IMG/VR virus record: IMGVR_UViG_3300008267_000102
Coordinates: 1-43,858 of that record
Reading direction: 5' to 3' (one strand)
DNA from: a virus
DNA length: 43,858 nt
Below the pieces are notes generated by a model. That model saw nothing but the letters and a program-made list of their open reading frames with translations. It was not told the origin of the DNA and searched no databases. The position numbers and the translations under genes were made by a program. Of the stretch, positions 38,025-41,708 are shown one piece after another; positions within the stretch are counted from its first letter, which is position 1; every line of letters begins with the position of its first letter.

Positions 38025-38051
38025 ATAAAAAAGCCACCGGTTAAGGTGGCT
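38025..38051 (-). terminator. Intrinsic terminator after the major capsid gene
   Basis: On the minus strand AGCCACC-TTAACC-GGTGGCT is followed by TTTTT. A 7-bp perfect stem (38045-38051 / 38032-38038), 18 bases beyond the capsid stop. It likely lowers transcription into the connector genes, matching the high capsid requirement. Confidence 0.88.
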
Positions 38052-38069
38052 CTATTATTACCGACCAGA

Positions 38070-39485
38070 TTAACCGGCGTTAGCTGTAGCAGCACAGACC
38101 AGAATGGCGTCTGACTTACCAATGATTTCAAAGAACTCTTTGTCCATCTTAACCACGGTACAGCCGTCAACGGTGTATGGGTCTAACAGTAATTTATCAA
38201 TGTCACCGTTGTTCAATAAGAACGCTTGTGACAAATCACCGAAGATTGCGAAAGTGCTGTTTGCAGCTACGTTCGGCATGGTGTCATCAATGATCACAGG
38301 ATAACCATTCAACACCAGACGTTTACCTGGCAAGCCTTCAATATATTCATACATGAACAATGGACGACCATCAGCATCTTTTACTTTTTCGAAGATACCT
38401 TTGGTATTCCGGTTCATGTACCAAGCGGCTTTACCTAAATACATCGTCGGCAGTTTGTTACAGGTATCAATTACCCAGTTCACGATAGCGTTACTATCGG
38501 CACCGATGGCACCTGAAATACCCGTTTTAACAACAGGATAAAAGTCAGAATCACGACGACCTGCACCTAATGTCGGTTTCCAGCTTTGGCCCGTAGTTGC
38601 TGTGATGTCAACACGTTTCGAACTCAGAATACCACGGCAGTTTTTACCGATACCGTTACCAAACAGAACTTGCGCAGCCAGATAAATACCTGACGACACA
38701 CCCATCTGATTAACTAAATCGGCGTAAATGTCAAGGTCTGAACCACGCATAGCTTCGTCGGTAATGCGAGGCTTCATGTTCATTTTGAACACGTTCGACT
38801 TAATTTCGACAAATTCACTGGTTGAAGTTTCAGGAATAGTCGTACCAGCTACGTTTTCAATACCTTCCTGCACTGAAGGATAGCTGATCTCAATCACTTG
38901 ACGGTAGTCGCGAGTTAACGATGGTTTGTAACCGATATGTGTTAAAATCGGTGAGAACTCACGCGCATAGTGCATAATGTCACTAGCAAGGATTTCAGCA
39001 ACAGCCATACCACCTTGAGCGGCAACGGTTAAGTTTAGTGTCTTAACCTGTTCAGGTGTATGCTTCGACTTGAGCTGAATATTTAAGCCCATTTCTTTTA
39101 ACTGGATTTCAGCATTTTCACGGATGAACTTAAAGAACTGGTCGCCTTCTTTACCGTCTTTTGTCTTAATGAACGCACCAATGGCTTTTTGCGCAACCAG
39201 ACGTAAAGCATTTTTTTGCTGTTCGTCAGTAACTGCTGCGATTGCCGGTTTTTGCTTACTGCGAAGATCAGACATTTCAGACTGAACTTCCGCCAGTGAT
39301 TCAACCAGCTTCTTCATGCCTTCAACGTCGCCACCTTCTTTCAGCTTGTCGAACTTGGTTTGTAAGTCCTCATGCTTTTGTGTCAGCGTTTTGAACTGTT
39401 GTGCCAGTTTTTCGTTTTCGTCATTCTGTGCGCTGAATTTCTTCAACGCTTCTTCGATCATCGCCTTGATTTGTTCAATGGTCAT
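38070..39485 (-). CDS. Major capsid protein, HK97 fold, with N-terminal delta/scaffold domain
   Basis: A 471-residue protein. Residues 1-95 are a charged coiled coil (EEALKKFSAQNDENEKLAQQ ... LVESLAEVQSEMSDLRSKQK) acting as a scaffold and removed by the protease, as in HK97. The rest has the phage_capsid pattern (GMAVAEILASDIMHYAREFS, TIPETSTSEFVEIKSNVF, KAAWYMNRNTKGIFEKV). Ribosome binding site TAAGG is 8 bases upstream of 39485. The 5' untranslated region is the structured RNA at 39486-39781. Confidence 0.93.
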   Translation of the reverse strand: MTIEQIKAMIEEALKKFSAQNDENEKLAQQFKTLTQKHEDLQTKFDKLKEGGDVEGMKKLVESLAEVQSEMSDLRSKQKPAIAAVTDEQQKNALRLVAQKAIGAFIKTKDGKEGDQFFKFIRENAEIQLKEMGLNIQLKSKHTPEQVKTLNLTVAAQGGMAVAEILASDIMHYAREFSPILTHIGYKPSLTRDYRQVIEISYPSVQEGIENVAGTTIPETSTSEFVEIKSNVFKMNMKPRITDEAMRGSDLDIYADLVNQMGVSSGIYLAAQVLFGNGIGKNCRGILSSKRVDITATTGQSWKPTLGAGRRDSDFYPVVKTGISGAIGADSNAIVNWVIDTCNKLPTMYLGKAAWYMNRNTKGIFEKVKDADGRPLFMYEYIEGLPGKRLVLNGYPVIIDDTMPNVAANSTFAIFGDLSQAFLLNNGDIDKLLLDPYTVDGCTVVKMDKEFFEIIGKSDAILVCAATANAG

Positions 39486-39781
39486 GGTTATTACCTTATG
39501 TGAAATTTGAGTGATGGTTTTTGGTTGCGCTTATCCAAGCGGTACTGTGTATCCACACAATGAGGTTTGAGCTGATGCGTGTCTTGCCAGTTGTAATCGG
39601 ACCTTCCCGCACAGACGATTACTATCTTCAGCTCATTGGCTTTGGTGTTTTTATTGCTACGGTAGCACGACGGCATGAATAGCTGGGTACGAAAACACCA
39701 AACCAATAAGCACTGACATTGCAGGTGTTAGCAAGGAGAACCCCTTCAACCTGTTTGACCTGCAATGTCAGTAAACTAAGA
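39486..39781 (-). ncRNA. Structured RNA between protease and major capsid genes (undescribed)
   Basis: On the mRNA strand, in 5'->3' order, five consecutive elements fill the gap: F, a perfect 15-bp stem (39758-39772 / 39712-39726); E, a 16-bp stem with a one-base bulge (39692-39707 / 39635-39651); C (39628-39634 / 39569-39575, 7 bp) enclosing D (39616-39622 / 39593-39599, 7 bp); B, TGTGT-GGAT-ACACA (39546-39559); A, CGCTT-GGAT-AAGCG (39528-39541). Adjacent elements are 0-9 bases apart, and A ends about 30 bases before TAAGG of the capsid gene. No T-run follows any stem. An ORF that can be read across it lacks a ribosome binding site. Function unknown. Confidence 0.75.
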
Positions 39782-40441
39782 TTACTTAAACAATTCTGAT
39801 TTTGCAAGTAATTCAGCTAATTCTTGCAATTCTTTTTCTTCATCGTCAACGCCTGGTTGATATGCACCGGTAATTTTCTCGATCTGGCGCTTACTCAACC
39901 AGCCGACTGAATCAAGGATTTCTCGCAGTTCGGATTTGGTCGGTAGTTTACCTTCTTCGAGATGCGATTTAATTGACTGTAACCGTGATTCTTCATTACA
40001 GGCAGCGACAACCCAACTGGTTTCGACTATATCGAGCTTGATTAAATCGTTACAGCGTTTTTCACTGTTCCACTTTTCCTCGATAACGCGATAGCCGATA
40101 CTGAAACTGTCTAACGCACCATCTTTAGCAAGTGCCAGAATATCGCGGCCCATAGTGGTATCAGCCAGCTTACCACGCATAAATAAACCTTTACTGTCCT
40201 CTTTCATTTCGAGCCAAGTACCGACCGGCAAACCGTACTTGTTGTGCATCCAGAACATTTTTGGCATGGTGCCATTGGCTTTATGCTTATCAATACTGTC
40301 CTGATATGCGCCATCTAAAGTACGATCAAGCGCATGGTCAATATTACCTTTCACATTGCCATAGCATGTAAACTCGCCAGTTTCTTTATCCATTTTAAAG
40401 TCGATAACACCGACGTTAAATGATTTATTTTTTACTGTCAT
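39782..40441 (-). CDS. HK97-type prohead protease (U35)
   Basis: 219 residues from the ATG at 40441, preceded by GGGAG; upstream start 40591 lies inside the portal gene and is rejected. His66 (FWMHNKYGLPVG) and Ser114 (DSFSIGYR) are in the positions of the U35 catalytic pair. It would cleave the delta domain from the capsid protein in the prohead. It overlaps the portal stop by 17 bases. Confidence 0.9.
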   Translation of the reverse strand: MTVKNKSFNVGVIDFKMDKETGEFTCYGNVKGNIDHALDRTLDGAYQDSIDKHKANGTMPKMFWMHNKYGLPVGTWLEMKEDSKGLFMRGKLADTTMGRDILALAKDGALDSFSIGYRVIEEKWNSEKRCNDLIKLDIVETSWVVAACNEESRLQSIKSHLEEGKLPTKSELREILDSVGWLSKRQIEKITGAYQPGVDDEEKELQELAELLAKSELFK

Positions 40442-41708
40442 CGGTATTACTCCCGTTATCCTGGTTATTTTGGTTATTGGCCTGACCGTATAGCTGAGCC
40501 TGAATTTCTTTAATATCGGTCCACAGACCATAAGTGACGTTATTGTTGTCGATGGCGAATACGTCACCGCCTTCAATGGTTTCACGGCCAAGGTCGATAC
40601 GTCCTTCGTTAATCGACGCTAGGCCACCTTTGACCTCGCGTTCAACCGCTTCCACCAGTCGCCACGGTGAACCGGCATAAAACGACTTACGGTTAAATTC
40701 GATACGCATACCGTCTGGCAATAGTGCATTGAAAGCGTATTCAAGCTTGACCAAGATCGGATTTAACGAGTCACGCATGTACGCTTCGTCCAGTTCGGCC
40801 ACGGTACTTTTAGTACCTGGATCACTGGCGATACCGGTGCGGTGCGGTGGCACTCGGGTCATCCGGCAAATACGATTTAAGGTAAACTCTTTATTCCCGA
40901 GTAATTCAGCATCTTTCGGGGTTAGTCTCAAACTGATTGGTGTTAACCCTTGTTCGAATACAGGAATGAAGTCAGCACCTTTGGCCCCACGCATTTTCTT
41001 CATTTCTTCGCGCAGACGTTCCTGAGCGCCTGGATTATTAAACACTTGCTCGGTTTTAAGTGCCATCTGTGACGTGATGCCATTGGTCTGTAATGACTCG
41101 TAAGCATCATCCTGTGCGTTGGCAATATTCAGCAATTGCGCACAGGCTTCAATCGGTCTTACCGGTCTGTAACCGTCTGTGGTAAACATGCTGATAATAA
41201 ACAAATCTTCAGGATAAGCGGCAATAACCGGTTTACCGTCATTCGTCGAATACGTGTAATACACGACGCCGTTAACGTCCATCATCGGACATACGTTACG
41301 CTGGTTAGCGAACGGTATGACCTCCATGACTTCGCCACGGTCATTACGCGCCAGATAAGCGTAAAAGACGCCATTGGTTTCGTAACATGCAATAGCCATT
41401 TCTAGAAACTGTTGCATGGTGAGGTAGTCACACGGCCGCTGTGTGAATATCCGGTGATTCCGGCCTTGCAAAACCAGCTCCCGTGCGTTGCGGCTGGTCT
41501 TATACAGTTTAATTGGCAATTGACCGATGGTTTCAGCTTTATCCCGAACACAGGAATAAAACGCCTCAATTTTCATTGCTTTGCTTTCAGTGATAAACAA
41601 TGACGAGAATTTACCTAAGACGTCGATACCAAAGCTTTCGCTAGATTTAGTATCAACGCTTTCGCCGCCAGCACTGAACCAGCTTTTTAATCTGGTCATC
41701 ATTTTCAT
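40425..41708 (-). CDS. Portal protein (HK97 family)
   Basis: A 427-residue protein. SKAMKIEAFYSCVRDKAETI and GQLPIKLYKTSRN are the typical start of HK97-type portals, with a later PPHRTGIASDPGTKSTVAEL segment seen in this family. It forms the dodecameric gate used for DNA packaging. It overlaps the large terminase gene by 4 bases. Confidence 0.93.
   Translation of the reverse strand: MKMMTRLKSWFSAGGESVDTKSSESFGIDVLGKFSSLFITESKAMKIEAFYSCVRDKAETIGQLPIKLYKTSRNARELVLQGRNHRIFTQRPCDYLTMQQFLEMAIACYETNGVFYAYLARNDRGEVMEVIPFANQRNVCPMMDVNGVVYYTYSTNDGKPVIAAYPEDLFIISMFTTDGYRPVRPIEACAQLLNIANAQDDAYESLQTNGITSQMALKTEQVFNNPGAQERLREEMKKMRGAKGADFIPVFEQGLTPISLRLTPKDAELLGNKEFTLNRICRMTRVPPHRTGIASDPGTKSTVAELDEAYMRDSLNPILVKLEYAFNALLPDGMRIEFNRKSFYAGSPWRLVEAVEREVKGGLASINEGRIDLGRETIEGGDVFAIDNNNVTYGLWTDIKEIQAQLYGQANNQNNQDNGSNTDDSKK

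Follow-up and report, generated by a model that had tools for sequence, protein, structure and literature searches.

The window, i.e. the whole 43.9-kb virus record analysed here, carries its head and tail genes on the minus strand, among which a large terminase, a portal, a prohead protease and a major capsid protein (MCP) were recognised with Pfam and PHROG. The prohead protease gene (S78; 39782..40591; PF04586, 3.6e-20; PHROG 80), whose listed ORF begins upstream of the likely real ATG, is followed by that of an HK97-fold MCP (38070..39485; PF05065, 5e-28; PHROG 10; AlphaFold and Foldseek). The protease stop (39782) and the MCP start (39485) are separated by a gap of 296 nt and, because the genes here all lie on the minus strand, the leader RNA corresponds to that strand, read from 39781 to 39486; the features described below are all on it.

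A putative sigma70 promoter, TTGCAA-N17-TAATCT (39779..39807), was called by consensus match at the protease end of the gap; the protease stop TAA forms the start of its -10 box and its predicted +1 falls at ca. 39772. Three structures found only in this lineage follow. These are a hairpin with a perfect 15-bp stem (39712..39772; arms 39772-39758 and 39726-39712) that begins at about the predicted +1, a long hairpin folding as 20 pairs with one bulge (39632..39711; arms 39711-39692 and 39652-39632), and a nested inverted repeat read from the sequence, CAATGAGCTGA...TCAGCTCA-AACC-TCATTG (39558..39641), which contains AATGAGCTGA...TCAGCTCA (39637-39558) with an inner TAATCG/CGATTA. The 3' end of this repeat overlaps the base of hp1 (39544..39561; AUUGUGU-GGAU-ACACAGU, 7 bp), the first of two small hairpins that share a GGAU loop and that form the conserved core according to sequence and arm-pair counts (see below); the second, hp2 (39528..39541), has a stem of 5 bp (CGCUU-GGAU-AAGCG). 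Next come an A/C-rich, G-poor linker (39498..39527), probably unstructured as judged by its base composition, and a segment (39486..39497) made of a Shine-Dalgarno motif, AAGG (39497-39494), and its spacer to the MCP ATG (39485). Directly 3' of the MCP gene, an intrinsic terminator is formed by a hairpin and a U-tract (AGAGCCACC-UUAACC-GGUGGCUUUUUU; 38027..38053).

The RNA of the gap folds at -86.1 kcal/mol against -70.9 +/- 4.7 in shuffles (z = -3.2), with none of 200 shuffles being as good, which bears out the first-pass annotation in holding so much pairing to be unlikely by chance; the plus strand gives z = -3.55 against shuffles, as expected of inverted repeats. The perfect 15-bp stem and the nested inverted repeat that it had listed are both present, and its 16-bp stem does have a single bulge but is longer than proposed. 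Of the two 5-bp GGAU hairpins that it described, the tandem arrangement, the common loop and the length of hp2 were retrieved, whereas hp1 has 7 bp. The structured part does end upstream of the capsid ribosome binding site, yet not just before it, the 3' end of hp2 lying ca. 30 nt upstream of the Shine-Dalgarno motif (AAGG, 39497). No other GGAT-loop hairpin of at least 5 bp occurs on either strand of the whole window. The minimum free energy fold of the full leader does not clearly form hp1 and hp2, and the isolated pair has a stability ordinary for its composition (z = -0.97). Within the leader, the sequence CAATGAG (39632-39638) is complementary either to CTTATTG (39710-39704) of the long hairpin or to CTCATTG (39564-39558) at the base of hp1, an alternative pairing that makes it a possible candidate for a structural switch. 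A 71-aa ORF with a TTG start also runs across the leader (39491-39706); it probably arose by chance, since the compact gaps of ca. 80 nt seen in relatives leave no room for a counterpart.

When the gap was used in a DNA search, distant Vibrio and Aeromonas phages matched over 34-37 nt only, a segment that corresponds to the two GGAU hairpins and that likewise lies between the protease and MCP genes of these phages. Their MCPs are only ca. 45-49% identical to that of the window, indicating that the hairpin element is strongly kept. A match in Pseudoalteromonas TW1 (H2, H3) falls inside a gene and was dismissed as chance. MCP neighbourhoods were gathered from named phages and from IMG/VR and the sequence before each MCP was read, which revealed the tandem hairpin pair in ca. 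40 loci belonging to a group of marine and lake phages, down to ca. 35% MCP identity, with a conserved element of ca. 40 nt (39528-39561 in the window). Two neighbouring hairpins are present at this position in almost every member. Of 51 distinct upstream regions, 29 contain a tandem whose loops are exactly the same, against 0.22 expected from dinucleotide shuffles. The pair is absent upstream of the MCP in L081-L084 and in the remote MCP relatives Pseudomonas phage VW-6S and Yersinia phage YeP2 (MCP ca. 24%, gap of 10-15 nt), and in L077-L079 and L090-L092 no second hairpin of similar loop could be clearly recognised there. MCP relatives were not found in bacterial genomes, and the plasmid search gave remote MCPs only. 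Two annotation points concern the MCP genes themselves: the frame is broken in L007:3001-4343 and L059 (10 stops in one frame), which is probably a sequencing or assembly frameshift, and the product is labelled "coil containing protein" in MG592391, MG592661, OX241569, OX241561 and similar records, a label that presumably reflects the N-terminal coiled-coil domain of the MCP.

The loops fall into several classes. The commonest is U[GGAU]A, in which some hp1 loops are GGAG or GGAA, and the others are G[GGGA]C together with U[GGGA]A, the pentaloops GGGAU and GGGAC, with one subclade having GAGAU or GUGAU in hp2, and G[UGGU]C. Both hairpins of one phage usually carry the same loop while the loop type (GGAU, GGGA, GGGAU or UGGU) differs between phages; the match is imperfect by one base or more in some subclades (GGAA or GGAG with GGAU; GGGAU with GAGAU or GUGAU). 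Among relatives of ca. 100-kb phages the tandem is often kept, with loops that have diverged more (GCGA, UAGU). The clearest exception to loop matching is the mixed pair, GGGAA in hp1 and UGGU in hp2, observed in L076 and L085 (IMGVR_UViG_3300006316_000001), a phage contig of ca. 107 kb. A covariance model of the GGAx class (R1) recovers that class at E values of 1e-12 to 1e-18 and misses the GGGA and UGGU classes, as its sequence content would lead one to expect. Kissing between the two loops was considered and dropped, the loops not being mutually complementary by eye, as was pairing of the loops with the anti-Shine-Dalgarno sequence, the likeness of the loops to the Shine-Dalgarno motif being limited, by eye, to matches of ca. 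3 nt.

Base pairs were counted on the hairpin set A3 and on the GGAx class A4; the all-class MAFFT alignment (A2) misaligned the loops between classes. Across classes, none of the 26 distinct arm pairs of hp2 has lost any of the 5 bp, and each position shows two to four pair types; the inner 4 bp of hp1 are kept in 25-26 of 26, each with two-sided changes. For 29 distinct tetraloop hairpins, 94.5% of the stem cells are paired and the covariation score reaches 0.90, compared with 62.3% and 0.31 after shuffling; two-sided changes are seen at all 5 pairs, and the signal is destroyed when the partner is slid by 1-3 columns. These counts ignore relatedness, and the number and spread of pair types exceed those of the slid controls. 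In the GGAx class, where both hairpins are in register, 99.4% of positions are paired and compensatory changes occur at 6 of 9 pairs, hp2 alone having them at 2 of 5 with the other pairs invariant; RNAalifold applied to this class returns exactly hp1 and hp2. Within one phage the arms of hp1 and hp2 differ and the loop is common, with a closing pair that is only U-A or G-C, a situation that fits recognition of the loop in RNA or single strand better than a palindromic double-stranded DNA operator.

The geometry of the element was compared over 42 loci. Spacing between the two loops is 18-34 nt (median 20), and the hp2 loop lies 38-66 nt from the MCP ATG, for a distance of 0-566 nt between the protease stop and hp1. 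Long insertions are all located upstream of hp1 and none between hp2 and the MCP; with the fixed distance to the MCP, this indicates that the element belongs to the MCP gene. The linker between hp2 and the Shine-Dalgarno motif contains 5.1% G in 38 distinct loci and is for this reason probably unstructured. In 33 of the 42 loci the gap is 78-103 nt long and holds hp1 and hp2 alone.

This last observation goes against the view of the whole gap as one RNA, which was rejected: the long stems are lineage-specific and absent outside close relatives, and the shared structure with compensatory changes that had been proposed as a check was found in relatives for the tandem hairpins and not for these stems. 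In the window, ca. 210 extra nt, comprising the 15-bp, 20-bp and nested stems, separate the promoter-like site from hp1. Among the fetched loci the perfect 15-bp-stem hairpin occurs only in the window and in L006/L018, and the contig of these two is the only other place in IMG/VR with an exact match to a 20-mer of the long hairpin. L006, whose MCP is 99% identical to that of the window, has an identical 3' block (the last 79 aligned columns) and a longer, rearranged 5' part with an extra whole module and a one-sided change that breaks a pair of the 15-bp stem. Different stems, particular to each, are present in L007, L036 and L040; in all other members the region holds either no stems or unrelated inserts. 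The region upstream of hp1 thus appears as a hypervariable, modular hairpin array (39558-39641 in the window, 2557-3000 in L006), with one copy of the outer repeat CCAATGAGCTG...CAGCTC in the window and two in L006 that enclose different sequences, the inner content of the nested repeat also differing between window and L006, as if modules had been gained or swapped. An apical AAGGGGTTyTyC is common to four 5' long-hairpin stems, three of which are otherwise different (39726-39758 in the window, L006, L007 and L036). In L048, L056 and L058, with gaps of 430-647 nt, DNA is inserted between the protease and hp1 and a promoter-like site is located just before hp1; after the protease, the inserts of L048 and L056 open with a strong hairpin resembling a terminator. 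Such a pattern would be expected if accessory DNA had been inserted and the MCP promoter relocated.

Promoters and terminators were called by consensus matches, and transcript ends are predicted. In most members a sigma70-like promoter with an N17 spacer has its -10 ending 8-13 nt before the hp1 core, and the upstream promoter score reaches p<=0.05 against shuffles in 27 of 41 loci. Taken alone the site of the window is unremarkable, with 72 equally good ones on the same strand, and the call is supported because most relatives show the same N17 arrangement. In compact phages the protease stop TAA is often the start of the -10 box, an overlap for which protein constraint could be an alternative cause; in D63, L048, L056 and L058 the promoter lies just before hp1 and outside any protease sequence. 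In the window it has stayed at the protease stop, so that the long stems come between it and hp1. A GC hairpin with a U-tract is found directly after the MCP in most members. No sigma70 promoter was found before hp1 in L026, L027 and L076, where hp1 either overlaps the protease stop or lies directly next to it; the hairpin 3' of the MCP is without a U-tract in L026 and L027, and the tandem hairpins persist in these cases. Their retention without such signals in ca. 100-kb phages favours a post-transcriptional role. In most members the element would correspond to the leader of a dedicated MCP mRNA within a promoter-leader-MCP-terminator unit, as far as conserved sequence signals tell.

Loop type provides some indication as to what may read the hairpins. 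Among Vibrio phages, Artemius has GGAU, LMAVpS1 GGGA, and 1244 and D63 UGGU, and one loop class is common to Vibrio and Aeromonas (KLEA5) phages. A loop that varies within a host genus and matches within a phage is probably better explained by a phage-encoded partner than by an invariant host factor. Loop class agrees with that of the nearest neighbour in 34 of 35 cases for the protease, 30 of 35 for the MCP N-domain, 27 of 31 for the portal, 14 of 16 for the terminase and 26 of 35 for the MCP shell domain; nearest neighbours by MCP N-domain are weak (37-46%) where the class disagrees. The shell domain of L048 (UGGU) is 82% shared with GGAU phages, its protease and N-domain being nearest to those of UGGU phages, that of L055 (GGAU) is 83% shared with LMAVpS1 (GGGA), and the terminase of L052 (GGGA) is 92-93% identical to those of GGAU phages. 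These mismatches make the shell domain and the terminase poor candidates, and the protease and the MCP N-domain fit. The latter two flank the RNA and would travel with the loop class anyway, so that their agreement does not name the partner. MCP residues 1-131 are modelled as long helices preceding the HK97-like shell (AlphaFold, mean pLDDT 71, i.e. moderate confidence; Foldseek) and are predicted to be scaffold-like, arranged as the scaffold domain of HK97, in which the equivalent N-terminal domain acts as the scaffold (PMC10275583). A further loop-reading protein considered was RegB. Its specificity is for GGAG/GGAU; the search for it gave no match, and none in control genomes either, which makes it uninformative.

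Several other explanations of the hairpin pair were weighed. The main rival, somewhat unlikely in our estimate, is a stabiliser of the mRNA 5' end that requires no specific ligand. GGGA, GGAA and GCGA are stable loops of the GNRA type, and the usual position of the promoter-like -10 would make hp1 nearly 5'-terminal, or place the 15-bp stem at about the predicted +1 in the window, on a transcript closed by a terminator after the MCP in most members. Stem-loops at the 5' end are indeed known to protect mRNAs (PMC7509114), and the likeness to stabilisers of the ompA type resides in the location of hairpins close to the predicted 5' end of an mRNA that is presumably abundant. Unlike in these, loop identity is conserved here, and hp1 and hp2 are retained even where other strong stems are closer to the predicted 5' end (the window, L006, L007, L036 and L040), as well as in L026, L027 and L076 where hp1 is not promoter-proximal; stabilisation would also leave the matching of loops unexplained, GGAU and UGGU not being specially stable. 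A promoter-like site followed by tandem hairpins and, ca. 1.4 kb downstream in most members, by a strong terminator also evokes a promoter-proximal antiterminator of the lambda nut or HK022 put type, by which the polymerase would read past the MCP terminator into the connector and tail genes. HK022 put consists of two tandem stem-loops just after the promoter, and lambdoid boxB loops are phage-specific; put and nut share with the present element hairpin(s) in the first transcribed stretch and terminators downstream. We nevertheless regard antitermination as distinctly unlikely, given that the window genome has a single site where nut and put serve two operons, that the position of the hairpins is tied to the MCP start and not to the promoter, and that L026 and L027, among ca. 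100-kb phages, keep them with neither a promoter found nor a U-tract on the MCP 3' hairpin.

The nearest analogue is provided by the CsrA/RsmA leader hairpins of E. coli flhDC and glgC and of Pseudomonas hcnA, with two GG(A)-loop hairpins ca. 20 nt apart, and a host CsrA/RsmA could in principle protect or repress the MCP mRNA as in flhDC or glgC. Most of the loops contain GGA and their spacing (18-34 nt) would suit one dimer. Near the 5' end of flhDC, CsrA occupies two sites and blocks RNase E; its sites and those of RsmE are ANGGAN hexaloops in which the A and the GGA are contacted, with ACA and GGA 100% conserved in SELEX (PMC7652899). Here, the base two before GGA is an A in only one of 19 GGA hairpins, so that neither the hexaloop nor the ANGGAN/ACARGGA rule is observed, GGA is altogether missing from 8 of 27 distinct hairpins (UGGU, GAGAU and GUGAU loops), those of UGGU phages included, and phages of one host genus differ in loop type, making this reading very improbable; no CsrA gene was detected in nine phage records. 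As for the view that no regulatory RNA exists and that the inverted repeats are kept for DNA reasons (a transcription-factor palindrome, a hairpin mobile element or a recombination junction), the hypervariable and modular character of the upstream stems in the window and L006 resembles mobile or recombining hairpin DNA, and for these stems only it is plausible. Applied to hp1 and hp2 it would be the least credible of all, their differing arms and shared loop being the reverse of a dimer operator and coming with strong covariation and a fixed distance to the MCP.

Tandem structure, covariation and a fixed distance to the MCP start all emerge from the comparison of the loci, and the last of these fits the role in capsid expression that the first-pass annotation had put forward among several functions. 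Its suggestion of a packaging RNA comparable to the phi29 pRNA is unsupported: the element appears as a cis leader that follows the promoter-like site and precedes the MCP start, to which it keeps a fixed distance, and no pRNA match was obtained in Rfam. The reading that we tentatively favour, as one that may hold, is that of a protein-bound cis-regulatory leader of the MCP with a phage-encoded partner, unassembled MCP being the leading candidate. The 5' leader of the MCP mRNA would present two matching loops ca. 20 nt apart, followed by a G-poor linker and then by the capsid ribosome binding site, and a dimeric or oligomeric protein reading both loops would act post-transcriptionally. Were this protein the unassembled MCP, binding through its N-terminal coiled-coil scaffold domain, free MCP might repress its own translation until subunits join proheads and the protease removes the N-terminal domain. 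Neither hairpin extends over the ribosome site, and activation or stabilisation is as conceivable as the putative repression. The more specific proposal of a capsid-gene operator, in which an undescribed leader-RNA family with a matching-loop pair is read by a phage capsid-assembly protein (MCP scaffold domain or protease) in loop "dialects" (GGAU, GGGA, GGGAU and UGGU), is possible but rather doubtful.

Some precedents exist for such an arrangement. As for autogenous operators, a conserved hairpin lies near the start of a structural gene, at a single site in the window. The coat-protein operators of the RNA phages MS2, PP7 and Qbeta likewise consist of a hairpin near a phage gene, with a loop that varies between phages; they differ from the present element, in which the hairpins form a tandem pair, belong to a dsDNA tailed phage, are located upstream of the ribosome site and not over it, and have a structural-protein reader that is proposed only. 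The scaffolding protein of P22 autoregulates, and the likeness there is that a free assembly protein would limit its own synthesis post-transcriptionally; in the present phages, however, the scaffold is the N-terminal domain of the MCP and autoregulation is a proposal.

In agreement with the statement that no named RNA class is known in this place, none of the 4227 Rfam families (release 15) matched above the gathering threshold in the window and 8 related loci, and only chance-level matches of the snoRNA type were seen at E<=5. Searches of the open-access literature on phage structured RNAs, capsid-gene leaders, CsrA, put/nut and scaffold autoregulation likewise turned up no account of it. 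It is therefore rated as a new family within a known kind, that of phage leader hairpins and translational operators.

Tailed phages need hundreds of MCP copies per dozen portal subunits and, to our knowledge, little is known of how this ratio is set post-transcriptionally in HK97-type phages. The conserved, covarying tandem hairpin with its lineage-specific loops represents a concrete candidate element for MCP dosage, and it probably sets the amount of shell protein made. Its naturally diversified loops, usually matched within a phage, offer a source for new RNA-protein pairs. Should a capsid-assembly protein read it, the element would represent a DNA-phage counterpart of the RNA-phage coat operators, and capsid synthesis would be fed back to assembly in HK97-type DNA phages.
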